From Coptis chinensis (lineage: Eukaryota > Streptophyta > Magnoliopsida > Ranunculales > Ranunculaceae): 64,000 nt of DNA. Below are positions 5,108 to 61,972 of the stretch, in pieces. The notes beneath the pieces are model-generated. The model was not told the origin of the DNA, ran no database searches, and was given only the letters and a program-made list of their open reading frames with translations. The stretch covers positions 104,801,501 through 104,865,500 of the forward strand of contig CM027378.1 in NCBI GenBank assembly GCA_015680905.1. Reading direction: 5' to 3'. Numbering within the stretch: position 1 is the stretch's first letter; every line of letters begins with the position of its first letter. A program made the translations under genes and the position numbers.

Positions 5108-6235
5108 TTATAGGGAAATTTTCAAAAAAATCAAACCTTGAAGAAGAATGGGGATATTCAACTCAAACAACATGTTTGAATCCTCAACTTGCAATATCTC
5201 CAATTCAAACACACGAGACCACTTACACAGTTCCGAACATATACTTATCTGAGACCTTAAACCAAGCATCGAATCTTTTGCAACACCACTCCCTCCAGAA
5301 AACCCACTCTCAATATCATTAACAACAAGTGAATACACATATCATAATTTCTAGGAAAAAATGTCAACACGGATATCGGTTCAAAATAATTGACACTATC
5401 ACCACTAACCACACTATCTAAACTCCCACAAACCAAACTAGTAAAAACAGTCGAGTTATTCAGATAATTAAGCTTACAAACGATAGAAAGATCAAGTAAA
5501 TTACCTTCTTTTGAATAGCCTACACCAGTTCCAACCATTATTCAAATAATTAAGCTTAAAAATGGCAGAAAGATCAAGTAAATTACCTTCTTTTGAATAG
5601 CCTGCACCAGTTCCAACCATTATTCGGATAATTAAGCTTAAAAACGGCAGAAAGATTAAGTAAATTACATTCTTTTGAATAGCCTACGCCAGTTCCAACT
5701 ATTATTCAGATAATTAAGCTTAAAAATGGCAGAAAGATCAAGTAAATTACCTTCTTTTGAATAGCCTACACCAGTTCCAACCATTATTTGGATAATTAAG
5801 CTTAAAAACAGTAGAAATATCAAATAAATTACCTTCTTTTGAATAGCCTACACCAGTTCCAACCATACAAAGCTTTCTAGAATCATCAGACCAAAAGCCA
5901 TTCAAGTTAATGCTCACTTTATTCCTCCTAACAGTAAATCTAGGTCTTCTAGTCTTAAATCGACTCGACTTTGTTCCTTCAAATGAAACTTTACTTCCCA
6001 TAGGAAACATACTACCAACTCTAAACACCAAAGACGCTTCAACATATAAAACACCATCTAAGTCAGTTTTATAAACATTTTGTGTACGGAAAACAAATGA
6101 TTCTGGTGAATTTTTATGAGTAAAGGTAGTATTTTTAACTATTTTTTTTTCTCCACCAATGAAATAACCAATTTTTAATTGTGAGAAACTTGATTTAGAT
6201 AAAAGTGAACCATTTGGTGTAGATTTTCAGTATGA
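5108..6235 (-). pseudogene. Captured fragment of a DUF2921 (plant membrane protein family) gene
   Basis: Read on the minus strand from about 6235, one frame carries FVFRTQNVYKTDLDGVLYVE, then an Arg-rich stretch, then NLNGFWSDDSRKLCMVGTG. The phrase 'GFWS..S.KLCMVG' is the hallmark of the DUF2921 N-terminal domain, and YFEPISVLTFFP farther on also fits. The frame is broken by a five-fold 82-bp duplication (5457-5866). The last part (GFSGGSGVAKDSMLGLRSQI at 5108-5338) is in another frame. Function of the parent family is not well defined. Position inside the CACTA element indicates transduplication of a host gene piece. Confidence 0.75.
5457..5866 (-). repeat. Five tandem copies of an 82-bp unit inside the DUF2921 fragment
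   Basis: The word CCAGTTCCAACCATTATT recurs at exact 82-bp spacing (its G at 5528, 5610, 5692, 5774, 5856). Copies differ at a few positions. Each unit covers the coding segment MVGTGVGYSKEGNLLDL onward. Because 82 is not a multiple of 3, every duplication shifts the reading frame. Confidence 0.95.
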
Positions 6236-9990: not shown

Positions 9991-10356
9991 TTATGGTTAA
10001 TTGTTTTATGGGTTTTTTAGACATTAGTCCTACTATTATTACGGAATTAGACTTTGGTCCAGAAATGTTGAAATATTAGGTTTTAGTCTTACTTCTGTTA
10101 CTTGAGCATCAGTCAACTTAGTTGAATGTGGTCATGTCGTTTGCTCTTTTGAGCGTGCGTCACACGTGCTTACAAGTAGGACTAAACTCTAACATCTAAC
10201 TTACAATAAGACTATTATTTACTTGAGAGTTCTAATTGACCATTTAGATGGAATTTGATTCCCATATATATTGAGGAAAGTTTTTTTCACGTTCTACAAT
10301 AAATTGCCTCGAAATTGGTTGATATGTTGCATAAACCAATTCTCTCAGTGGGGAAT

Positions 10357-11865
10357 TGATAAAAGATAAAAATGACAGTTTTACCTATGAATAAGCGATA
10401 AAACTCAAATGTAAGTAAAACTAAAGCTATTTTCGTGCTTATATATCAAAATTCTACACTCTCGATGCTATTGCAATAAGTGGAGTAGAGAATTCGTTCC
10501 ATTCCTAGTTCTTTAGAATTAATGTTAACGACAATTATCAGTTCTATCAAAGTCAATGAGAGTACGGATTAATGTAATTATGCTATCAACAAGGGAAATA
10601 ACGTAATCGAAATGTTCTTAATAATAAGACGACAATTAAAATACTAAGGTTCGAATCTAGATAAAGAGTTAGGGGGATTTGATTCCACCTTAATTCGACT
10701 TAATAAACTAGCAAGAATTGTTGTAATCCGAATTGCAATGCTTTCGCATAACAATTAGGTCATTCTAATCCTTAATTGTTCATAGTAATCTCTACCAACT
10801 AACAACTAGCATGTAAAGCAATCAAACACATTCTCATGGTGAACTAACTACTTTCTAGAATGGAATAGATTATTACCAACAATTCTACGCTAATAACAAT
10901 CAAGTTTCATCAATTAATCTTGAATCATTATACTATTATTTCTAACACAAGAACAAATAGAACAACTCATTATTGAATAAATGATTAAACTTTATAAATC
11001 TAATTTAATAATAGTCTAAGATTCAAAATGAATTAAAACTGAATTTAAAACTATGATTAAGAATAACTAATTATCAAATTAAGACAAACTAATTATGAAT
11101 TTAAGACAACTAAAGCTAAATAAGAATTGAATCATAAAACTAAGTTGAAATGATAAAACTAATTCTTTATTATAAACTAAATCTGATTCTAAATAACATT
11201 CATTTCTTTGTTCTAAAACTAATTAACTGAATGTAAAAAACTAGATCTAAAAACTAAGTTATTGGATTCTTCCTAAGTAAAAAACACAAGATATCTTAAG
11301 AGCTAAGTCTCTCATATGGAGGATACAAGATCCACAAATTCGTGCATGGGCTGAGGAGCCATGTTTTGGGCCGAAAATCAAGCCCAAAACCTTATTACTT
11401 CAGTCCACAAAGGGATTTTCAGCCATATTTGACTTCAACAGCCTTTTTGTCTACTTTTGTTCTTTTTATTGGATCAAGTCTTGTACCATTAGAAAGCTCT
11501 TTCCGAGCCGGTCGTTTTGACATAAGATAGGCCCAATTCCGAGCTCTGAGTACAAAGATACGACCTTCGGAAGTTCTGCTGACTTTTGTGCGCTGTTTCT
11601 GCCCGCGTTGACTTTGACTTTTCAGCTTTGACCGGGCTTTAAAAAGGCTTTTTTTCCTTGAATCTTGGCCTTTTATCATAGAACTTCTTAGCAACCAACT
11701 TTTGCTCCTTTATCTCGCAAAAAGGGCGCATTTCTGCACATATTTGACTCCAATGCCTGAAATACATAAGAACACGATAACAGTACTAACTTTTACTTAT
11801 TAATCACATAATTGGTTCATAGCGATAGTTAAAGGGGTTAAAACTACAATTTTGGGCTCTTATCA
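10357..11865 (-). repeat. 3' LTR of the Athila-like element
   Basis: 1,509 bp, direct repeat of 23750-25308. It differs by scattered substitutions and small indels. A 35-bp block present in the other LTR near 24306-24340 (AAGGCTTTCTCAAACCCC...) is absent here. Confidence 0.93.
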
Positions 11866-23747: not shown

Positions 23748-23749
23748 TT

Positions 23750-25308
23750 TGATAAAAGGTAAAAACGATAGTTTTACCTACGAATAAGCGATAAAACTCA
23801 AACGTAAGTAAAACTAAAGTTATTTTCGTGCTTATATATCAAAGTTCTACACTCTCGATGCTATTGCAATAAGTGGAATAGAGAATTCGTTCCACTCCTA
23901 GTTCTTTAGAATTAACGTTAACGACGATTATCAGTTCTATCAAAGTCAATGAGAGTACGGATTAATGTAATTATGCTATCAACGAAGGAAATAACGTAAT
24001 TGAAATGTTTTAAATAATAAGACGGCAATTAAAATACTAAGGTTCGAATCTAGATAAAGAATTAGGAGGATTTGATTCCACCTTAATTCAATTTAATAAA
24101 CTAGCAAAAATTGTTGTAATCCGAATTGCAATGCTTTCACATAACAATTGGGTCTTTCTAATCCCTAATTATTCATGGTATTCTCTACCAACTAACAACT
24201 AACATGTGAAGCAATTAAACCCATTCTCATGGTGAACCAACTACTTTCTAGAATGGAATATATCATTACTAACAATTCTACACTAATAACAATCAAGTTT
24301 CATCAAGGCTTTCTCAAACCCCTCTAATGGAGGTTTTAGCCTTGAATCATTATACTATCATTTCTAACACAAGAACAAATAGAACAACTCATTATTGAAT
24401 AAATGATTAAACTTTATAAATCTAATTTAACAATAGTCTAAGATTCGAAATGAATTAAAACCAAATTTAAAACTAATTTAGAACTATGATTAAGAATAAC
24501 TAATTATCAAATTAAGACAAACTAATTATGAATTTGAGACAACTAAAGCTAAATAAAAATTGAATCATAAAACTAAGTTGAAATGATAAAACTAATTCTT
24601 TATTATAAACTAAATCTGATTCTAAATAACATTCATTTCTTTGTTCTAAAACTAATTAACTGAATGTAAAAAAAAACTAGATCTAAAAACTAAGTTATTA
24701 GATTCTTCCTAAGTAAAAAAACAAGATATCTTAAGAGCTAAGTCTTTGTCTCTCATATGGAGGAGACAAGATCCACAAATTTGTGCATGGGCTGAGGAGC
24801 CATGTTTTGGGCTGAAAAATCGAGTCCAAAACCTTATTACTTCAGTCCACAAAGGGATTTTTAGCTTGATTTGACTTCAATAGCCTTTTCATCAACTTCT
24901 GCTCCTCTGATTGGGTCAAGGTTTGGACCATTAGAAAGCTCTTTCTGAGTCGGTCGTTTTGAAATAAGGTAGGCCAATTTCGAGGTCTGAGTTCAAAGAT
25001 AAGGCCTTTGGAAGTTCTGCTGACTTTTGTGCGTTGTTTCTGCTCGTGTTGATTTTGACTTTTCAGCTTTGACCGGGTTTTAAAAAGGCTTTTTCTCCTT
25101 GAATCTTGGCCTTTTATCATAGAACTTCTTAGCAACCAACCTTTGCTCCTTTATCTCGCAAAAGGGGCACATTTCTGCACATATTTGACTCCAATGCCTG
25201 AAATACATAAGAACACGATAACAGTACTAACTCTTATTTATTAATCACATAATTGGTCAAAAGCGATATTGTTAAAGGGGTTAAAACTACAGTTTTGGGC
25301 TCTTATCA
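23750..25308 (-). repeat. 5' LTR of the Athila-like element
   Basis: 1,559 bp, direct repeat of 10357-11865 with TG...CA ends. Small differences (for example the 35-bp block at 24306-24340) show the pair has diverged since insertion. Confidence 0.93.
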
Positions 25309-46527: not shown

Positions 46528-47159
46528 TTAAGTGAAGAGAAATATCCTAAACAAAGCAAGAAAAGTGCCCTTTCTTCTCAATTCATACAAAATACTCAAT
46601 TTTGACCAATTCAATGGAAATTTGACACTTTTACCATTGTTCATGTCCAGACAAACAATTCTCTCTCCAACAGAAAAAAAAAAAAAAAATTTCTCTCTCC
46701 TATCTTTTTGGCTCTTTTGATGTGAACTTGTCTCTTGTTCATCACCACACGATTTTGTTGAGATATGTGTGGTCGTTTAGAACTGTTGGATCTCAACAAA
46801 TTCAAAATAAAACCACAACTATCTCTTCTTCAATACTCTTTCTTTTCCTTCTCTAACACTCTTCACGCACAGTCAAATTTTGATGTGAATTGCTTTTATG
46901 AAAAATCACAAGAATTTCTTAAAAGCAACTAAATTAAGGACTTTTCTAAACACTGATTTATATAATATCAAACTTAATTACAATCATTTATATAATATCA
47001 AACTCTAAATACACTGAAATCCAATTGAAAACAAAATAAAGCATATAAGATTTAGAGGAACCAGGATTTAAAGTCTTAATAAACTAAACCAGGATCTAAG
47101 AATGTATTGAAATTAAGTACAAAATGTATTAAAAAATTTCATCTTACAAAGATTTAAAA

Positions 47160-47943
47160 TAAAAAACTACCACCACCAGATTAGTACCAAAAACCATAAA
47201 AGTAGCTGAGTTATGGTTTCAAAATAACTACCGTATTAACACGTAAGTTATATACAAGAGAAACTTAGCTCAAAATTAACTGAAAAAACACAAGCTAATT
47301 GCTTAACAAATATCATCTGTAAGTGAGAAACAAATTCTTCAGTGTGTAACTCACATATCAAAAATTTATAATTTGGTAAAAATATACATATCATCCATAT
47401 GTGAGAAACAGATTCCTCAATATATATATATATTGATGAATCTATTTCTCACATATGGATGATATATCAATAAATTATATTTCAGTAAAATTTAACAAAA
47501 TAAATAGAAAACAATGAAATAAGATAAAACAATTAAATTAAAATTAATAAAATCACCATCAATTCAGTACCATATTAACACATTTCTTTTAAGAGCAACT
47601 CAGTTCAACATATATTGAAAAATCGCACATTTGGTCAACACAAATCATATGTAAGTGATAAACAGCTTCTCATTATATAACTCATAGATTAAAAAATCAC
47701 CAACAGTTTGGATTACAAAAACTACTCAAGTAGCTGACATAAAGTTTAAAAGTAACTACCACTTTAAATATTACACCCAATCGAAATTTACTCCAAAATA
47801 TATTTAAAAAATACAAGTTTATTTTTCACTATATATCATATAAAAGTGACAGATATATTCTTCAATCTATAACTCACAGTTTAAAATTTTACGTTTCAGT
47901 TAAACTTAATACATTTTTAAAAATAAACAGTAAAATAAAAAAT

Positions 47944-47996
<53 letters not shown>

Positions 47997-48560
47997 AGAT
48001 CAAAGGATGCAAACCCGAAACCGGAACCACACCCCAAATTTCTTGCCCAAGAACAAGTATATATATATATATATATATATCACTAATGATTGAGTACCAA
48101 AAGCTATTAAAGTAGCTGACAAATGGTTTGAAAGAAACTACCATATCAATAAATTGTATCCAAAAGAAACTTAGCCCCAAATTTACTGAAAAAGAACAAG
48201 TTCATCATTTAAACAATATCATATATGAATGACAAACAAGTTTCGTAGTATGTAACTCACAAATCAACAAACTATATTTTAGATAAACTTAATATAAAAT
48301 TAAAAGAACAAAAGACACACAAGTTCACTAAGTACCAAATATACAATTAAAATAGCAAACATGTGGTTTGAAAGTCACTACCATATTAATACATTACATC
48401 CAAATGAAATTTAGCCTAAAATATCTTTAAAAAGTATAAATTTATTTTTTTATATATCATATATCAAATGGAAGTGACAAACATATTCTTCAATTCGTAA
48501 CTCATAGTTCAAAAAATTACATTTCAGTGAAACTTAGTAACAAAAAATAGTAACATAAAA
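47160..48560. repeat. Diverged subrepeats in the left arm of the foldback element
   Basis: A unit carrying 'AGTACCAAAAACTACTAAAGTAGCTGAC', 'AACTACCATATTAA', 'GAAACTTAGCC', 'ATGACAAACA' and 'GTAACTCACA' motifs recurs at about 47190, 47570, 47700, 48090, 48330 and 48590, continuing at 51830 after the solo LTR. The right arm has the mirror copies (53830-54620, 60780-61330). Confidence 0.75.
47947..48080. repeat. Two (AT)n microsatellites
   Basis: AT runs at 47947-47993 and 48057-48080 flank a 63-bp unique segment. The mirror position in the right arm (about 54415-54445) lacks them, so they arose after the palindrome formed. Confidence 0.85.
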
Positions 48561-48617
48561 AATAATAATATCACCAATTATTGAGTACCAAAAACTACTA
48601 AAGTAGCTCACATATAG

Positions 48618-51600
48618 TGTCACAGCCCGAATTTCTAAACAATTAAAAAAATGAACATTTGAAATATAAATATCTCAAACATCACTATATTCAATTGTCT
48701 AAAACCCAAAGCATGACGGGTGGATCTGACACATGTCAAAACCTAAAACCCACATCATAAAGAATCTTAACAACAAAAATCTCCAAAATTTCTCAACCAT
48801 CACTTTATTAAAGACTATCTTCCGTTCAAAAACATCATATAAAACTCTAAGAATAAAAGGTCCTCAACATCGTATTCTCATGTCATATGAACAGGAACTA
48901 AGCTATTACATACCTTACAAAAAGAACAGACCTAAAAATAAACTCCCGGATTGCTCCAGGCACGAATCCCAATCACACGCCATGGTTCCAATGCCTTCCA
49001 CCTATGTTCCCAAGAACACACCCACGCGTTACAAAACAAAGCAAACATAGGTCGAAGAAAATGGAATTTCTTTGGTATGAGTGTACTAACCACATATAAA
49101 CATTCAAAACTTTTCTTATCCCACTAACACTTTAACTCTATCATAACCTAATCATTCACAAACTTGGAAGGCAATTGGTTCCATCATTTCAACCGCATAG
49201 CTTCTTCCCAAGCAAAACTTCCATTATATAACTCATTATAATAACTTCGTTTTAATATCTAAACCATTGAATTTAAAACTTACCGATATCCATTTTTTTA
49301 ATCCAGATAAAGGGTAGGACCGCGTCCCTCACACAAAATATTATTAAGTCCTACCCTCCTCAAAAAAGAAAGTTAGCAATTTTATATAAGATGTGTAGAT
49401 ATCCTATAGGTATTCCAATGCAAGCCCAAATACACTCGCGATAATCAAATTAATTTATCTTATTAATTAATCAATTACTTTTCTTATACACATATTTCAC
49501 AACCTATGTGCCTTAGGTCATTCCATACATTCAAGGAATACCCAACCTTACATTCCCGTCATACACTCAGGAATACAACTAACCCGGTGAAGGTGAATAC
49601 CTTAGTTCCTCTCTGTGGTAGTCCAAACAATCCGGTCATTCATGGCACATTCAATGAATACCGGGGTCATTCATGGCATTTCAATGAATACCCATAGATA
49701 ACGCTTAACGGGCCATTTATGGCACATTCAATAAATGCCCACCTAACATATGACATCAATCGTATAAACTAAATTCTAAAAATTGAGGGCGTGGAGTTCT
49801 AAAGAGTCGCGGTAAATTTTGTTTATGCATTATTGAACTTTATTTTATATATCATTTCAGAGAACGAATGAGTAGCTTAATAAATGTATTTTTGGTTTAC
49901 GCGTTATTAGTTTCATGGATGTCTAAGTGTCAACGTTGTATATCATAAAATACTGCACAATCACATATTAGTTAATACACGTACACACGTATATATAGAA
50001 AGGTCTTAGCCTAAAGCCAAGCACGTTAATAGTCATAAACTTATCCTATTAGACCGAATCATAATTTTAGGAAAAAGTCAAATTTTCGGGTCAATTGGTC
50101 AAAGTCAACCCTGGTCAAAGTCAAAGTCAAAGTCCACTCTGGTCAACCGTCAAAGTCAGAGTCCACTCTAGTCAACAGTCAAAGTCAACCTAGCCTAAAC
50201 TCCAAAACCCAAAAGCCCAAAGCCTAAAAATTTAAAAAACCAAACAAAAAAACATATAGCCCACCACGATTTGGCCCTAAGCCCAAATCGTGGTTCACTG
50301 CTTCATCTCCTTCCTCTCAAATTCTCCACCACCACCGACCACCACAACAGCCACCACCGGCCACCTCTACAAAAAGAACCCAGTTTTGATCCATTTTCAA
50401 ACCCCTACCTATCTATACTAACAAATCACGATTTCCTTATACTGGAAAAATCGCGATCTACGGCCATTACTAATCCTTCAAGCTTCAATCGCCCCCTCTG
50501 AACACCCAAATCCACCACCAACAATCAACAAAAACCCAACAACAAAAACTCACAACAAAATTCATACACAACAACATTCAAAGCAAACAAAAAAAAACAG
50601 AACGGTTTGGGTTCTTGTTTGAACGCCATTAATGGCTGTTCAAAGCTTCCCAACGTTCATAACTCAATTCCACCACTGCTCGTCATTCCCCGGCAACCCA
50701 CACAACCTATATAGATCATCCCCTACCACAACACTTCCAATCACCCACCAAATTCCTCTGGACCAACAATAGCAGTAAAACAAAACCCTAGTAATTGAAT
50801 TCTATTCAAATCAAATTAATCAATGAAGTTGGTATTTACTAATATCTATTCTCATCCTCATCACAAGATAATAAACTCATGAAATTTAGATTTTTGTCGA
50901 GTTTTTATACAACTGTAGAACTTCAAAATTTGATCTAACAAAGGCACCATTTCGGATATGATTAGCGATTAACGAGATATCAATTAATGAAAACACTATT
51001 TCGGATATGATTAGCGATTAACGAAAAAAAGTAAAATAATTTTTTCGTACTACTCCGCGGTTTTAAAACCGGCAGTTTTTACCAATATATAAAAAGCAAA
51101 ACCTATACACCGATATCTGGCTGTAAATCGGTGATATAGCAAAATAGCTACTCACCTTAACTAACGATTTCGGCGAATTTTTTCTCAGCCGAATCGTTAA
51201 ATTGCTCCACCTCTCCAAAAAAACCAACTTCTTTCTCTGCCTCCATTTTTTTTTTATATTTTATTATCTTCCAAACCCTATTCTCTAGAACAATGTGTTT
51301 ATATACTTGGGTCTGAAACCCAAGCCCAACACCGACTCGGGCCCAAAACCAAGCCCACGTATCCCGAGTCCAATCCGGCCAATTTTTAAAATAAATAATT
51401 AAATTAATTAATTAAATAGAAAAATCGTTATTTAAAAATCTGACAATTCTGGGGCCTCGTGCTCACGCCGCCATTAACGGCCTCAGAGCCCGGCAGTTCA
51501 ACAAAGACCGCGATATCCAGAATATCTGAGGTTTGACGGTTCTATATCAAATCCGAGTTTCTCTAGAGTTTTAACAACTTCGGCGACCACGTAGAATAAA

Positions 51601-52842: not shown

Positions 52843-54622
52843 TATATAATAATAAAGTCAAAGTGCATCTGATCTGTTGTCGACATATTAAGATACTCGA
52901 AGTTGTCAATCTCTCACATGAAAGATGACAATGGACATAATTTGCCAAGAAAAACGTTCGTTAGGGCGGAAAATAATTTGGCGGGAAAAACTATTAGCGG
53001 GAAAACAACTATATCTCTCATTTTTCTTACACTTCTCCTCATCAATTCACTATCCTCATCAGCTCTCTTACTTTTTTTATAACTTTTTAATTATCATTCT
53101 CCTACCACTTACCTTATCACTTTGCATTTTTCATTTTCTCTTTATTTCTCTATTTCATTTCAAGAATTCATTTGTCAAAACCCCTTATTTTTTTCCTTTT
53201 TCAGTTTGTGCTCATGTTTCACATGAAATAAACTAATGTAACAATCAACGGCGACGACTTTGTCCCATTTGGTTTGGTCGTGTTGGTTGGTTATTTTGTA
53301 CAATTTGTCTCTTCATTATTCATTTCCAAAAAACCAATTTTTGTTAGAAATATGAAAACCTTAGTTCAACAAGAAGAATGTTGAAATTGGTCATGGTTAT
53401 TACTATGTGTAAGACTTTAATATAAATGTGATGAAAGTTCTAGTTGGTCTACTAAATCAGCAAGAAGTGGCCAGTCAAATGGAAGTAAACAAAATTACAA
53501 ATGTATGCAAAATGGTTATCGTGTGTCAGGTAAATGATTATATCAAAAGGAAAAAGGTATTCCAATGCATTCTATCTGCAACTTTTGCTTGCTTCATTAA
53601 ATTTTTGTCTTGTTATACAAATACATAAAGTATATTTTTTTGGGTATTTTTGAAATATTTGTTGAACGTTTTTTTTTACCAAATATATTTTGAGATATGT
53701 TTTCCTTGTTGATTAGTGAGTTCTATACCGCGGAATTTGTTTGTCATTCATATATGATATGGGTTAAATGGTGTACTTGTTCTTTATCAGTACATATGAG
53801 GCTAAGTTTCTCTTGGATACGATAATGTACTGATATGGTAGTTTTTTCCAAACTATATGTCTGCTACTTTAGTAGTTTTTGATACTCAATCATTGGTGAT
53901 ATTATTATTTTTTATGTTATTGTTATTTTTTATATAAAAAAAATTACTAAGTTTCACTGAAATGTAAATTTTTTTAACTGTGAGTTACGAACTGAAGAAT
54001 ATGTTTGCCACTTCCATTTGATATATGATATATATAAAAATAAACTTATACTTTTTAAAGATATTTTGGGCTAAATTTCATTTGGATGTAATGTATTAAT
54101 ATGGTAGTGACTTTCAAACCACATGTTTGCTACTTTAATTGTATATTTAGTACTTAGTGAACTTGTGTATCTTTTGTTATTTTAATTTTATATTAAGTTT
54201 ATCTAAAATGTAGTTTGTTGATTTGTGAGTTATATACTATGGTACGGAACTTGTTTGTCATTTATATATGATATTGGTTAAATGATGAACTTGTTCTTTT
54301 TCAGTACATTTAGGGCTAAGTTTCTCTCGGATACAATTTATTGATATGGTAGTTTCTTTCAAACAATTTGTCAGCTACTTTAATAGCTTCTGGTACTCAA
54401 TCGTTGGTGATATTATTATTTTTTAAAAATTTTTTGTTTGTTTTTAAAAATTTATTAAGTTTAACTGAAATGTAAAATTTTAAACTGTGAGTTACAGATT
54501 GAAGAATATATTTGTCACTTTTATATGATATATAGTGAAAAATAAACTTGTATTTTTTAAATATATTTTGGAGTAAATTTCGATCGGATGTAATGTTTAA
54601 ATTAGTAGTTACTTTTAAACTT

Positions 54623-54923
54623 TGTAGTAGCCATATTGAGGGATGTATCCATAAGTCTTGGGCAAGAGATCTGCCCGGACCGTGAGTGTGTATTGGCCCG
54701 AAAAATGGGCCCAAGACCAAACTATGCCCTAGGAGTAACCCTAAAAGGGGGAGGAAAAGAAGGAGGAGGGGGGGTGAGAATGGAGGCAGAGGGGGTGAGG
54801 AGTGTGAGGTGAACTCTGGCGCTTGATCCCTCGAAAAATGTGCGTGAAACCTAATTGGTGCAACCGATCTAAAAGAAGCGAGAGTGAGTAAAATAGGGGT
54901 CAGCGGTGTTGTGTGGTGCGACA
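54623..54923 (+). repeat. 5' LTR of the CLASSY-carrying element
   Basis: 301 bp. Matches 60489-60752 with scattered differences. G/A-rich middle (AAAAGGGGGAGGAAAAGAAG). Confidence 0.85.
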
Positions 54924-54949
54924 AATGGCGCGTCTGTGGGGATCGGTTT

Positions 54950-56820
54950 CTCAGCGGCTTATTTCGTTTTTCACCAATCGAGGACTTAGTCACCGACTCA
55001 TTTTGAACCGAGTGAGTCAATCAGAAAATTATTGGTGGGTTGGTGTCGTCTAACAGCAGTTCTTAAAGGATCGAGTTTGATTGTGGAGAGCAAATTACCT
55101 AATGAAATACTCAAAACAAGCAGCTCATTTGATGCGAAATCAGGTGATAGTTTGATTAGATTTCATAAATGGGGTATGAAGTAATATAAGATGATGAAGA
55201 CATGTACTTTCGAATCGGGGATAGCCTCGTCCCTAGCTTTTGGGCCGGTATTAGGAAGAAAGATGTTTATGCATTGTGGAATTTGGTTAATGAGATAGGT
55301 GAGAATGATGTGGGTGTATTGAATACTGAGAGTCTGAATGAAGTGAATAAGTGGAGAAATAGAAGTTGGTGTTAGAGGACCATGGTCACCAAGAAGGCAA
55401 TTTTGAGTCGATTAGTAAGTAAATTTGGACCGAAATTGGAGTGTTATGGCCCGTGGAATTCGAGGAAGGTGCAGTAAATCTTGTAGACTTAGTTGGTGTA
55501 ACTTTCGACACTTATGTTGAGCATGAACCTTTCGAGGAAGAGGACGCATTATAGTTCTTTAGCGCATGCTATTCATGGAAACAAATGGGCGTAATTGCTA
55601 GGATTTTCTGAGGGAGAACCCGACAATGCTATTAAGAACCACCTTTGGAATTCCACTCTTGGCGTGGCGACAGGTTGAAGATTAGGGGACCATCCTTGAA
55701 AGAGGATGGAACATATCAACCTTGACAAAACCAAAGCGTCCTGAAGAAACATTGTCATCGCGGAGATGTCAATTCATTTAGGTCCTCGGAGGGAAAGATG
55801 TGAACTTTGTTGAGAGCATGTCCGTCGATGTGATGATAGAGCACAAAGTAATTACATTATTCTTGGGAGCTAATGAACCACCGAGAGCCTCTTCCGTCCG
55901 ATTGGCTCGTGTTAGTGCATTTAACATTTATATTCCTCCAAACGGCACGAAATGTTTCAATTATCTAGGAAGTCCCGTGTCTTGGGCCTCTCAATCAAGT
56001 GACACGACCGGATATCAAGTATTTGCAGGTTGCTTTCGAAGGTGTTTGTGGTGAGCCACCGGTGCCTTCTCGGTGTGGACATGGTTGTTGTGGTACTAAA
56101 GGGAAAAATCCACGAGAGAGTTCACTTTTAGGGCGAGTTTGTTGAATTTGAAGAACCTCCATACTTCTCGATCCGCGAGTTGGCTTCCATAGCGGCATGA
56201 TTTAAGTAAAATCGCTTGGCTCAAAAGTGGCTTGGAGAATTCCAACACCAAAGGCAATCTTGGGTAGTAGTTGTGTAATGCCTCAAGGAGCTTGTCTTGA
56301 GATGGGAAACCTGAAAGAAAGTAGGATGAATGAACTTATCTTGCGGTTTGAAGAGGGTAGGATCGGGGTAATGGGTTTGATGATGGATGTGATGTCGACC
56401 CGAATGTCTAGTCAAACGTTTGCACTACCAGCTAGGAGTTGACTAGTTCAAAGAAAATAGGACTTATTATGGGTCTGTAGAACTGCATGTAAAGAAGATT
56501 CAAGAGAGTTGCTATATGGGCTGGTGTTCATTTTATTACATTTATTTTATGAAGCGATTCTGGTGTAGAGCTTCATTTTGGTGTGATTGTGTGAAAATGA
56601 GGGTCTGCTTTTTTATTTTGTTTGATTGATGGGCTGATGGTGTGCGATCGGCTAGTCACGAGCATCTTCAAGCACACATCAAAAGGGAAGTTTGCTTTTA
56701 TACTACATATGTTACAGCAGGCTTTCTTTTAGAAAGCATGTATGTTACAACTTTTTCGTTTAGGTTTTGTTTAGAAGTCTGTAGCGATAGGTCAAAAAGG
56801 ATATATAGGTGGGCGGGGTA
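54950..56820 (+). other. Internal region of the LTR element, not recognised
   Basis: Gene-like base composition but no frame longer than about 100 codons and no domain I can name. It may be further, more decayed, parts of the captured gene or non-coding element sequence. Minus-strand frames here have no support. Confidence 0.4.
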
Positions 56821-56823
56821 ATA

Positions 56824-58470
56824 AATTGAGTCATGAAAGAAGTCCTCAAAGAGATCCGATGATGGTCTCGAGACATATGGAGGGAAATGTCACTAGCATT
56901 GGAATGCTCTAAGGATGCTCTGAGAGACACCGTTGAAAACAATGTAAATCTGAAAAAGAATGTGGCCATTCCTTTGTTCTCAAGGATGATCTGGGGTATG
57001 TTTGTCGGGTCTGCGGTGTTATCAGAAAGAGCATGGACACTATGTTTGACTTCCAGTGGGGAAGGGTTTCAAAGACCACGCGGACTTACATGTCTGAACC
57101 TCAGAGTACAAAAGAAAGAGAAGAATGTGGCGCTGCTCCCTTTCCTGGAGTTAATAGTTCTCATGATCTCGCAAAGTTTGATATATCTGTGCATCCGAGG
57201 CACATGAAAGAGATGAAAGTGCATCAGCTTGAGGGGTTCAATTTCTTGGTTAGGAATTTGATATCTGATAACCCATGTGGTTGCATCCACGCACATGCTC
57301 CAGGATCTGGAAAAGACGTTTATGTTGATCGGGTTTCATTCAAAGCTTTTTAGCTAAGTATCCACGAGCTAGACCACTGGTTTGTATTCTTGAAAGGCAT
57401 TTTGGCTACATGGAAGAAAGAGTTTGCAATATGGCAAGTAGAAGACTTTCCTTTATATGATTTTTATTCTTCCAATGCATTGAGTCGGGAGGAACAGTTA
57501 ATGGTCTTGAAAGAATGGGTTGAACACAAGGGGATATTGTTCTTAGGTACTCACGGTTTGCTAGTATTGTGAGTAAGAGTGAAAATAGCGAAGCCGATGG
57601 TGAAAGGCGTCATGATATACTTACTGGGTTCCTTCAATTTTGATTTGTGATGAAGGCCACACTCCTAGAAATGAGGAAACAGATGTCTTAAGGTCACTTT
57701 TGAAAGTTCGGACACCTAGGAAAGTTGTATTGGCGGGGACCTTGTTTGAGCCATGTGAAAGAAGTATTCAACATCCTAAATCTTGTCCGCCCCAAGTTCT
57801 TGAAGTCCGATACTTTTTCAGATTATTAAAAGCGTGTGATGAGTAGAGTACAGATTTCTAGTGGGAGGAGGCAAGTGAAAGCCGAAGTGCGGATGCATTG
57901 TTCTTTGACACAATCGTCGGGGACACTTTGCGAGAATGATGATAACCTTAGAAGAAAAGTTACATCGGACAAGACCTGCCGGAAATGACAAGCAATGTTC
58001 TCCACTATTACAAAGGAGATTTTTAGAGGAACTTCCCCGGTCAGTTGATTTCTGATCCTACTCAATCTCGATCCACAACGAGACGCATTATAGACGGTTT
58101 GAAGAAAGTGGAGCAGTTCAAGAGAACGGCCATTGGATCTGCCGTTTCTCTGCATCCTATGTTAAAAAAAGAAATCTCGAGGGTCCATTTGTTTTGGCGA
58201 CAAAATTTCTGCGTTAATAATGAAAGTTGGATAAGTTGTTAATGAAACTTGATGTTAGAGGCGGAGTGAAGGCCAAGTTTTTACGTTAACATATTGGGAC
58301 TCTGTGAATCTTAAGGGAAAAGCTGCTTGTGTTCTGCAAGTATCTCCTTCCAATGAAGTTCTTGGAACGGTTGGTCGTTCGCACCAAGGGTTGGAGGGTT
58401 GGCAAAGAGATCTTCATGATCAGTAGTTATGTTTCACAGCCAAAGTAAGTGCATGAGGAATGTTTGGCCC
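56824..58470 (+). pseudogene. Captured fragment of a CLASSY (CLSY3/4-like) SNF2 chromatin remodeller
   Basis: Segments in shifting frames, in family order: IWREMSLALECSKDAL; a CxxC region (ECGHSFVLKDDLGYVCRVCG, about 56960-57020); DISVHPRHMKEMKVHQLEGF; helicase motif I HAHAPGSGK (Lys present, next residue Asp instead of Thr); [20 protein letters not shown]; motif [89 protein letters not shown] (to about 58415). CLASSY proteins are plant SNF2-family factors that recruit RNA polymerase IV to loci for 24-nt siRNA production in RNA-directed DNA methylation. At least six frame breaks and stops; introns are absent where I can follow it. It lies inside an LTR element, so it is a captured copy, not the host gene. 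Confidence 0.85.
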
Positions 58471-58959
58471 GAAATCGCCAAAAAAGATGTTTGTTCTGTG
58501 TGCATGGTGAAAAAGGGAATCCTTCATGAAGGTTGCATAGTGATATGAAGGCGAGTTGCATGCAACGAATAACTCGGAAATCCAGAGGAACAAAGAGATC
58601 TAGAGTTTGGGACTGAGATCAACAGATTGGAGCGTCCCTAATACAAATGGTAAGAGGCGATTCTGAAGAGATCTGAGACATACAAATGGCGATTCTGAGA
58701 AAAAGAAAGATTTGCGGTACCGTGGAAACGAGTGGAGATGGAGCTGATATTTACTAGATGATGTTTGGTCTATTCTTATGTGGGAAGAGATAGAGATGAA
58801 AGCTGCCTTTAAGCCCGAGAGGGGGGGATGAGCCACTCAGCGGACCCTGGTGTCCGAATCAAACATGGGGGCAAGCCGGTTGCCCCTCACCGATCATTCT
58901 GGCCAGGAGATAGGCGGGGGATGAGCCCTCCGACAACCCGAGCAAACCCGGGAGTGGGA

Positions 58960-59770
58960 TGAGCTCTCCATGGACCAGAGATGCTAGAGATACATGGGGC
59001 AATGAGAGAGCCCTAACCGGGCGACAACCGGTCGAGCCGTGGAGTGGGATGAGCCCTCCGGATCGAGATGCTAGAGATACATGGGGCAATGAGAGAGCCC
59101 TAACCCGGCGACAACCCGTCGAGCCCGTGGAGTGGGATGAGAGCCTCTACGGATCAGAGATGCTAGTGATACATGGGGCAATGGGAGAGCCCCAACCGGG
59201 CGACAACCCAAGAGAGCGGAGTGGGATGAGCCCCTCCGCGGATCGAGACGCTAGAGATACATGGGGCAATGAGAGAGCCTAACCGGCGACAACCGGTCGA
59301 GACCGCTGAGTGGGATGAGCCCTCGGCGTGTTAGAGATGTTAGAGATACATGGGGCAATGAGAGAGCCCCGGCCGGCGACATCCCGGTCGAGCACTGCTT
59401 GAGTGGGATGAGCCCTCCGCCGGATCGAGAGATGTTAGAGATATATGGGGCAATAAGAGAGCCCCAACCGGGCGATAAACCGGTCGAGACCGCTGAGTGG
59501 GATAGCCCTCCGCTGATCGAGAGGCGCTAGATATACATGGGGCAATGAGAGAGCCCTAACCGGGCGACAACCGGTCGAGACAGCGGAGTGGGATGAGCCC
59601 TCGCCGTATTAGAGATGTTAGAGATACATGGGGCAATGAGAGAGCCCCAGGCCGGCGACATCCCCCGAGAGCCCGGAGTGGGATGAGCCCCTCCGGCAGA
59701 TCGAGATGTTAGAGATACATGGGGCAATGAGAGAGCCCCAACTGGTGAAAACCGGTCGAGCTTCCTTGAG
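58960..59770 (+). repeat. Nine tandem copies of an approximately 90-bp repeat near the 3' LTR
   Basis: CATGGGGCAATGAGAGAGCC recurs at 58993, 59080, 59172, 59260, 59349, 59444 (as TATGGGGCAAT), 59536, 59627 and 59718, spacing 87-95 bp. Each unit also has GAGTGGGATGAGCCC and CGGGCGACAACCGGTCGAG. Frames through it on either strand are repeat artefacts. Degenerate related sequence continues to about 60260. Confidence 0.93.
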
Positions 59771-60488
59771 GGGGATGAGCCCCTTCCGCGGACGGAAAGG
59801 CAAAAGAAACGAGGCGGTCAAAGAGAGTAGCCCCGAGCACGGTTGAGCCGGTCGGAGTTACAAGAGATATCGTTGGACATGAGATCCGAATCAAACATGG
59901 GGCAAAGCGGGGTTGGCCTCTCACGAACTTCTTTCGGAAACGAGAGGCAGTGGGGTGATGAGTCTTCCGCCAAGCGAGTTCAAAACTACAATTGGAAGGG
60001 GCGAGAGTCCGCTTTCGGATGACGGGATATTGAGGTCCATGAGTAAGGGCAAAGGGGATGAGCCCTTTGGCGGATACAATATTGAGTTCTGTGAAAGGGT
60101 GAGACACTCTGTGCACATAGTAGTAAGTTATGTGGAGGAGAGTTTATGGCCGGGACAAGACACTCTGCGGGTATGGTAGTGAATTTTGTAGATGAGAGTG
60201 GATAGGCTGGGTGGAACACTTCACATGAGAATGGAGTTTGAAGAGTGAGAGTGAAGGGGATGAGACCACTCGTGGATCGCTAATGAGTTCTATGAATGAG
60301 AACCGATAAAGTGAGACACTTCCACGGACATCTGATCTAGTAGCCGAAAGATGCGTGGATATGAGATGTCCCGGGAGAAGAAGGCTACGTCTGATCCGCA
60401 GGGACAATGTGGATATCTAGAGTTGAGAGAAAGAGACAAGGGCGCTTGAGGACTTCGGGTCCTTATGCGCCGAACCGAAAGGGGCAAT

Positions 60489-60752
60489 TGTAGTAGCCAT
60501 ATTGAGGGATGTATCACATAAAATCTTGGGCCAAGAATCTGGCCCGGACCGTGAGTGTGTATTGGGCCCAAAAATGGGCCCAAGACCAAACTATGCCCTA
60601 GGAGTAACCCTAAAAGGGGGGGGAAAAAAGGAGGAGGGGGTGAGAATGGAGGCAGAGTGGGGTGAGGAGTGTGAGGTGAACTATGGCGGCTTGATCCCGA
60701 AAGAATGCGTGAGGCAACCTAATTGGTGCGGCCGATCTAAAAGAGGCTGAGA
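60489..60752 (+). repeat. 3' LTR of the CLASSY-carrying element (truncated)
   Basis: About 264 bp of LTR, losing homology at GAGGCTGAGAATG, some 40 bp before the LTR end. It is followed directly by the duplicated target sequence. Confidence 0.75.
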
Positions 60753-61972
60753 ATGTTTAGGGGGATGTAATGTTTAAATTAGTAGTTACAAACTTTATGT
60801 CAGCTACTTGAGTAGTTTTTGTAATCCAACTGTTGGTGATTTTTTAATATGTGAGTTATATAATGAGAAACTGTTTGTCACTTACATATGATTTTTGTTG
60901 ACCAAATGTGTGATTTTTCAGTATATGTTGAATTAAGTTTCTCTTAGAAGAAATGTGTTAATATGGTACTGAATTGATAGTGATTTTATTAATTTTAATT
61001 TCATTGTTTTCTATTTATTTTGTTAAATTTTACTGAAATGTAATTTATTGATATATGAGTATATATATTGAGGAATCTGTTTCTCACATATGGTTGTTGA
61101 TATATATATTTTTACCAAATTATAATTTTTTGATATGTAAGTTACACACTGAAGAATTTGTTTCTCACTTATATATGATATTTGTTAAACAATTAGCTTA
61201 TGTTTTTTCAGTTAATTTTGGGCTAAGTTTCTCTTGTATGTAACATACGTGTTAATACGGTAGTTACTTTGAAACCATAAATCAGCTACTTTTATGGTTT
61301 TTGGTATTGATCCGGTGGTAGTTTTTTACTTTAAATATTTGTAAGATGGAATTTTTCAATACATTTTGTACTTAGTTTCAATACATTCTTAAATCCTGGT
61401 TCCCTTAAATCTTCAATGTTTTATTTTGTTTTCAATTGGATTTCAGTGTATTTAGAGTTTGATATTATATAAATGATTGTAATTAAGTTTGATATTATAT
61501 AAATCAGTGTTCAGAAAAGTCCTTAATTTAGTTGCTTTTAAGAAATTCTTGTGATTTTTCATAAAAACAATTCACATCAAAATTTGTTCAAAGTTGCTGA
61601 CGTTGTTTTAATGTATTACTACTTAATGGATTGTGCGTGAAGAGTGTTAGAGAAGGAGAAGAAAGAGTGTTGGAGAAGAGAGAGTTGTGGTTTTATTTTG
61701 AATTTGTTGAGATCCAACGGTTCCAAACGACCACACAGATCTCAACAAAATCATATAGTGATGAGCAAGAGACAAAGTCACATCAAAGGAGACAAGGAAA
61801 GAGGAGAGAGAAATGTTTTTTTTTTTCTGTTAGAGAGAGAATTGTTTGTTTGGACATGGGCAAGGGCAAAACTGTCAAATTTCTGTTAAATTGATCAAAA
61901 TTGAGTGTTTTGCCTGGATTGAGAAGAAATGACACTTTTCTTCCCTTGTTTAGGATATTTCTCTTAAGTGAA

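Follow-up and report, generated by a model that had tools for sequence, protein, structure and literature searches.

The stretch of DNA analysed here, called the window, comprises 64,000 nucleotides of the genome of the medicinal plant Coptis chinensis (C2:104801501-104865500) and includes an LTR retrotransposon spanning positions 54623-60755, which encloses a fragment of an SNF2-type gene (Table 1). The two LTRs can be aligned at 90% identity over 275 columns, 17 of which are gaps, and this confirms the placement of the fragment between LTRs by a first-pass annotation. The end of the 5' LTR was placed from the LTR ends of three copies of the same family located elsewhere in the genome (L013, L014, and L016), to which positions 54621-55346 are 83-86% identical; the 5' LTR and leader together reach 85.8% with L013. 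The leader opens with AATGGCGCGTCTGTGGGG, which we take to be primer-binding-site-like. No gag or pol domain was detected in the 10 distinct open frames scanned (three in the window and seven in L013), and a 90-aa open frame in the internal sequence (55782-56054) has no Pfam match.

Table 1. Features of the element and of the surrounding inverted repeat, in window positions (a slash marks an exon junction or the capture breakpoint; subfamilies are defined in the text).
Feature	Position	Strand	Remarks
Inverted repeat, left arm	46535..48618	-	Empty site at 47741-47778
Inverted repeat, right arm	53852..61965	+	Broken by the LTR element
Inverted-repeat-arm flank	54586..54622	.	Repeated at 60763-60797 beyond the element
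5' LTR	54623..54923	+	TGTAGTAGCC...GTGGTGCGACA; aligned to its 3' partner and to LTRs of other copies
5' leader after the LTR	54924..55346	+	Begins AATGGCGCGTCTGTGGGG; common to subfamily A
Subfamily B internal sequence	55347..56795	+	Also in L015, part in L012
Spliced, frameshifted DRD1/CHR35 cDNA fragment	56800..58423	+	About residues 297-869 of P0003
Exon-exon junction ALECSK/DA	56913..56914	+	Host intron precisely absent
Exon-exon junction FDFQWG(K/R)/VSKTT	57065..57066	+	Host intron precisely absent
3' capture breakpoint	58423..58424	+	ATGATCAG/TAGTT; common to 8 of 9 copies, those keeping this stretch
Tandem array of ~91-bp G+C-rich units, part of the element	58915..59792	+	
3' LTR, final ~45 bp absent	60489..60755	+	From LTR alignments
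Second copy of the duplicated flank	60763..60797	.	34 of 38 columns identical to 54586-54622

The fragment had been described as embedded in an arm of a giant inverted repeat. The element does sit in the right arm, but as an unpaired insertion and not as part of the repeat: the left arm is uninterrupted across the empty site, and only the right arm received the insertion. Because the element is unpaired in one arm, the hairpin route to siRNAs suggested for it fails, and the inverted repeat loses its proposed role as an siRNA source. In the window, no other significant match to the fragment was found on either strand (next best E = 0.087). The insertion is bordered on both sides by about 36 bp of arm sequence, where a 5-bp duplication is usual; no 5-bp target duplication was seen on reading the flanks of this copy, the 3' LTR of which is truncated. 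Elsewhere in the window, two direct repeats at 10356-11827 and 23749-25268, 85-95% alike and about 13.4 kb apart, may be the LTRs of a further and larger element, and a tandem array with a unit of 82 bp occupies 5374-5947.

A three-frame reading of 56790-58700 reveals a single SNF2 protein split across several frames. The tblastn search of the window with a 717-aa Coptis protein gave E = 7e-153, a match that chance would not produce, and residues 34-582 of P0005, a DRD1-like Coptis protein, are matched with 24 stops read through. The fragment contains a zinc-like motif, SNF2 lobe 1, and the start of lobe 2, and ends within Helicase_C, leaving the two-lobe ATPase incomplete. The motifs first quoted from it are all present, CRVCGVI, VHPRHMKEMKVHQLEGF, and HAHAPGSGK in the open frame 56937-57353, DEGHTPRN and LKKVEQFKRTAIG in a different frame of the same stretch. 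Its limits, initially given as 56824..58470, had to be moved, as the DRD1 homology extends from about 56800 to 58423 and the remainder up to 58470 lies beyond the breakpoint of the family. Resemblance to DRD1 stops at 58423, and copies elsewhere switch in the same way. This breakpoint is based on an alignment of six copies, five of which keep it and one of which (L016) does not, and L047, L048, and L049 align across it. The capture starts at about residue 232 in L013 and L014 and at about residue 297 in the window, in each case later than the host peptide formed by residues 74-132 (peptide 7), which is thus missing. The captured piece is a fragment and not a DRD1 gene. Searches of Pfam and the PDB with the first 138-aa window piece were without useful result.

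The silencing component carried by this transposon is indeed broken, as first reported, but the gene is DRD1 (CHR35) and not CLASSY; DRD1, CHR35, and At2g16390 are names of one gene. The 138-aa window piece was placed by maximum likelihood among 25 of 240 listed proteins and four Coptis loci (30 chosen rows in all; midpoint root). It occupies 17% of the kept columns and pairs with P0005 (100/99) within a CHR35 clade of 17 rows (100/100), away from the CLASSY rows; for the CLSY1/2 type, the tree has one Coptis locus on a long branch, L034, which we take to be of that type from its motifs. With the four unbroken window pieces A, B, C, and D as blastp queries, P0005 comes top and other CHR35-clade proteins next, each of 16 CHR35-clade rows scoring above every CLASSY row; the best matches thus belong, at the subfamily level, to SNF2 proteins other than those first named. 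Independent evidence comes from P0003 (IFM89_013686), a host protein of Coptis chinensis with 100% identity to the translation of the L010 stretch: its residues 74-132 match chain G of PDB entry 6oit (CHROMATIN REMODELING 35, E 1.6e-6), a DRD1 peptide solved with DMS3 and RDM1. A protein search with host L010 returned 908 proteins, and among the best 120 many are named CHROMATIN REMODELING 35 and a few CLASSY. The same kind of search with the Coptis CLASSY-type L029 returned 465 proteins, the best 120 of which were listed, the informative names among these being many CLASSY 3 or CLASSY 3-like, one CLASSY 4-like, and one chromatin remodeling 31. Because the gene is DRD1 (CHR35) and not CLASSY, the step of the pathway concerned is the recruitment of Pol V instead of the Pol IV and 24-nt siRNA step to which the fragment had been assigned.

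The fragment was correctly described as intronless, since introns are missing where host genes carry them. At the equivalents of both junctions, introns interrupt host loci L010 and L011, and the window joins the exons exactly. At the first junction, CTCTAAG^GTATTT...TTTCTAG^GATACT in L010 stands against CTCTAAG/GATGCT in the window and, at the second, GGGGAAAG^GTTTGG...TTTACCAG^GTTTCAAAG stands against GGGGAAGG/GTTTCAAAG. L013 and L014 are also exactly joined at the first junction, and L013 retains one extra upstream exon, joined by alignment where L010 has an intron. As the introns are precisely gone, the donor molecule was therefore a spliced RNA, captured via cDNA. The residues of P0005 (IFM89_006562, 717 aa) suggest that it is most likely the donor or the sister of the donor, because it shares 34 of the 46 element-specific residues found among 412 codons compared and runs on past the breakpoint as an ordinary DRD1 gene. 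Ten of the 12 unshared residues lie past the breakpoint, and within the captured stretch 34 of 36 are shared. The P0005 locus did not appear in the results of either of two protein searches run on this genome (one of which scored 62 of 83 candidates), even though loci that are shorter and more distant did. Neither the window nor any of L009-L016 encodes P0005, since none of them is 100% identical to it over its length.

The family carrying DRD1, which is probably non-autonomous, has at least nine copies, the window included, nine being a lower bound from protein searches of the plant's own genome, one of which scored 62 of 83 candidates. The longer DRD1 copies are, besides the window, L012 (C2), L013 (C38), L014 (C7), L015 (C9), and L016 (C5), and a shorter DRD1 piece is found in L047 and L049 (C1) and L048 (C2). 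Three subfamilies were defined by structure: A with L013, L014, and L016, B with the window, L012, and L015, and C with L047-L049. When the DNA of the six longer copies was placed in a tree with three hosts, the copies grouped in a single clade (100/100) that keeps B together (99.9/100) but does not resolve A as a clade (0/28). The clade of the six copies, the shared breakpoint, and the 34 of 36 residues in common with P0005 show that DRD1 was taken up in one capture and then spread.

TG...CA LTRs and 5-bp target duplications were found in seven of the nine copies (L013, GTGTT; L014, CTTTC; L015, ATACC; L016, GTTTA; L047, AGTTT; L048, TGAAG; L049, GTGAT), and no 5' LTR was seen in the stretch of L012 examined. 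The LTR pairs of six copies are 96.6-99.1% identical, with 4 mismatches over 318 aligned bases in L013, 5 over 319 in L014, 6 over 322 in L016, and 3 each over 332-335 in L047, L048, and L049; the window has 11 over 258 and L015 25 over 275. At a substitution rate of 1e-8, as applied in the Coptis assembly paper (PMC8172641), the six copies would be about 0.45-0.94 million years old, the window element 2.2, and the L015 element 4.9, although sequence errors perhaps inflate the ages of the window and L015. Two candidates were not counted as copies of the element. L050 (C8:33.13 Mb) is the remnant of a diverged DRD1 sequence and has no LTR match, and L051 corresponds to upstream exons near host locus L009. 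L009 itself is a host DRD1 gene with one stop in its frame; it and L050, about 30 kb before it, lie within C8:33.13-33.16 Mb.

A second silencing gene is represented in L047, L048, and L049, where a spliced SUVH piece precedes the DRD1 piece, with a 216-aa open frame in L047. Its best match outside broken copies, at C4:7414325 (93%), lies in a 1139-aa frame. The host locus L052 (G000:C4:7413600-7418600) has SRA, Pre-SET, and SET domains, and its closest PDB match is Arabidopsis SUVH6 (6a5k, E 6.9e-192), followed by SUVH4 (4.6e-101) and SUVH9 (5.8e-97); SUVH5 figures in the PDB list as an SRA domain only, so that SUVH5 and SUVH6 are not separated, and L052 is classed by these matches as an SUVH5/6-type H3K9 methyltransferase. 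The captured part covers 1.4 kb, is 94.1, 93.9, and 91.7% identical to the host in the three copies, and stops before the SRA domain. The 5'UTR intron of L052 is exactly absent on reading L047 and L049, and L048 aligns likewise. Exactly shared 24-mers with L052 number 428, 417, and 233 in the three copies, and none is shared by the window or L012-L016. At codon positions 1/2/3, the sites variable among the three copies number 27/39/42 and those fixed relative to the host 9/10/13. As a query against Pfam and NCBIfam, the N-terminal SUVH piece gave no useful result. Four further loci bear the SUVH piece at 85-90%, and 801-base stretches of all four gave no DRD1 match; the sequences of L054, L055, and L056 part from that of L047 some 40 bp short of the DRD1 piece. 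More diverged matches to the SUVH piece occur on C4 and C6, and L052 itself is one of several long frames matching it between C4:7.348 and 7.422 Mb.

Other host genes have also contributed to the family. L013, L014, and L016 carry a piece like AT3G52110, a conserved plant protein (91 proteins found, one so named), the final 43 bp of which also directly precede DRD1 in L047-L049; this suggests that recombination or template switching between copies gave rise to subfamily C. A short kinase-like piece, presumably STN7-like, is present in L047-L049 and continues in L054-L056 (Pfam Pkinase E 2e-6, below the curated cut-off); its comparison with the PDB was without useful result. A PPR piece is common to L053-L056 (Pfam PPR, E 1e-8). 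This brings the donor genes to about five, two of which act in silencing. With its kinase, PPR, and AT3G52110-like pieces, the family has thus captured more than silencing genes. Two annotated Coptis 'genes', P0243 and P0244 (193 and 196 aa), match the AT3G52110-like piece at 89% and 76% identity and are possibly copies of the element.

Codon variation was compared between the window with L012-L016 and three agreeing hosts. Variable sites among the six copies number 85/82/78 at codon positions 1/2/3, split into 56/49/49 where one copy differs and 29/33/29 shared, and the differences fixed in all six number 22/8/47. Away from CG/CWG sites, the variation is still even (35/27/26 and 10/8/12). The piece evolved as a coding sequence before its spread and, since the variation is even over codon positions, without visible coding constraint afterwards; coding selection on the captured piece was rejected on this ground, also off CG/CWG sites. 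Private changes accumulate within two bases of CG/CWG (21 of 38 short deletions, 24 of 48 insertions, and 68 of 162 substitutions), being 2.4 to 3.2 times commoner there than the background of 17.4%. For nanopore R9.4 reads, from which the assembly was built with Albacore calling and Racon and Pilon polishing (PMC8172641), this suggests deamination, methylation-linked errors in base calling, or a combination of the two. Given the CG/CWG-linked changes and the nanopore reads, the frameshift count is not to be taken at face value, and some frameshifts may be nanopore errors; likewise, the evidence for neutrality comes from six copies, and the nanopore assembly that contains them probably still has errors.

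Most probably, the window element is an older, damaged copy of a non-autonomous LTR family that repeatedly transduces pieces of host mRNAs in a Bs1-like manner, the captured pieces decaying neutrally. A spliced DRD1 (CHR35) mRNA would have been packaged with the RNA of the element, and the reverse transcriptase would have switched template, inserting a piece of DRD1 cDNA cut short at both ends; template switching between co-packaged RNAs is described for LTR elements in a recent review (PMC13317346). The piece was then copied by transposition, together with the element, to at least nine loci and, in some copies, lies beside other host-gene pieces, including that of the SUVH5/6-type H3K9 methyltransferase. 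The only likely biological effect of the captured piece, if any, would be as a source or target of siRNAs.

This kind of element is already known. Maize Bs1 is an LTR element without full-length host genes that has transduced segments of three host genes (PMC13317346), and in Coptis, too, spliced host pieces lie between LTRs and move with the element. Unlike Bs1, the Coptis family has about five donors, combined differently between copies, and two of them are silencing genes. Host genes inside full-length LTR elements are also described in rice and sorghum, some with small RNAs and many being pseudogenes in rice (PMC3726574); that survey began with annotated genes, whereas the frameshifted Coptis pieces were traced to host relatives and to a breakpoint. 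In the titles and abstract beginnings of the papers listed, a set with few subscription papers in it, no capture of DRD1, CLASSY, or SUVH was found.

Against the transduction reading counts the share of silencing genes, two of about five donors, which is above what blind sampling would usually yield. If silencing genes are taken as about 100-200 of some 41,000, the probability of finding one or more of them among three to five further captures is about 0.7-2.4%, a post-hoc figure that ignores expression bias. The best-surviving alternative, although unlikely, is a silencing conflict in which siRNAs from the DRD1 and SUVH5/6 pieces match the host genes, silencing of the element either weakens these genes or is held back by selection so that they are spared, and such captures are preferentially kept. 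It would fit the presence of two separate silencing genes in one family, the many 24-mers shared by the SUVH pieces with L052, and the fewest LTR mismatches being those of the copies with both pieces, although L013, L014, and L016 have barely more. The window copy, however, shares only 0, 9, and 10 of its 1604 24-mers with the three DRD1 loci compared, the closest gene, IFM89_006562, standing outside these three. Coding or length conservation of the pieces is also absent, and at least three other captured pieces (kinase, PPR, and AT3G52110-like) are not known to act in silencing. Such a conflict would fit the copies with both SUVH and DRD1, which are young, better than that of the window.

The idea of a conflict is legitimate because donor-gene silencing from captured pieces, and conflict with it, have been reported in maize (PMC13317346). 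According to the same source, TE silencing may oppose the donor gene in the siRNA reservoirs formed by Sirevirus, Pack-MULE, and Helitron captures, and the Coptis family differs from these in having two donors that belong to the silencing machinery itself. VANDAL transposons with VANC, in that source, likewise bear something tied to the control of their own methylation, but VANC is an active protein, whereas the Coptis pieces are non-coding host-gene fragments. It is likewise improbable that the family keeps the DRD1 and SUVH5/6-type cDNA pieces as molecular hostages, the SUVH+DRD1 copies of subfamily C being favoured; if this were true, siRNAs against the element would hit host silencing genes, and the host would either spare the element or weaken its own defence. 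The Coptis family suits the question whether captured gene pieces set TE silencing against gene function, through its silencing-gene donors, its several young copies, and a closest SUVH gene known as DNA. As DRD1-only copies, DRD1+SUVH copies, and SUVH loci with no DRD1 match exist side by side, small-RNA and methylation data from one plant could test the conflict directly.

Transduction of mRNA pieces followed by neutral decay is challenged far less by the remaining alternatives. That the captured piece encodes a truncated DRD1 acting as a decoy against RdDM is very improbable: the zinc-like motif and ATPase lobe 1 are retained and the frameshifts may partly be assembly errors, but the piece lacks the peptide docking DMS3-RDM1, terminates inside Helicase_C, and varies equally at all codon positions. 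A degenerate host CLASSY or DRD1 gene caught between unrelated LTR insertions would explain the LTR-fragment-LTR order and nothing further, and it is excluded by the missing introns, the one breakpoint in eight of nine copies, and the separate target duplications at seven. It is hardly credible that the fragment is truly CLASSY, although some databases label CHR35-like Populus and Salix proteins in this way and the CLASSY3/4-type proteins of Coptis also have HAPGTGK and DEGHTPRN, given the blastp scores of all four pieces and the position of both such labels placed in the tree.

Three Salix and Populus proteins (P0026, P0032, and P0040) are labelled CLASSY 2 or CLASSY 3 and match the CHR35/DRD1 query at 69%. 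The labels of P0026 (Salix) and P0032 (Populus) are misnomers, because both fall in the CHR35 clade. Surveys of silencing genes can be led astray by annotation of this sort, with CHR35 labelled CLASSY and element copies perhaps entered as genes. The CLASSY3/4-type loci of Coptis, L029, L030, L042/L045, and L043 (on C1, C1, C2, and C6), comprise several near-identical copies, some with shorter open frames, and a true CLASSY gene was possibly amplified recently in Coptis.
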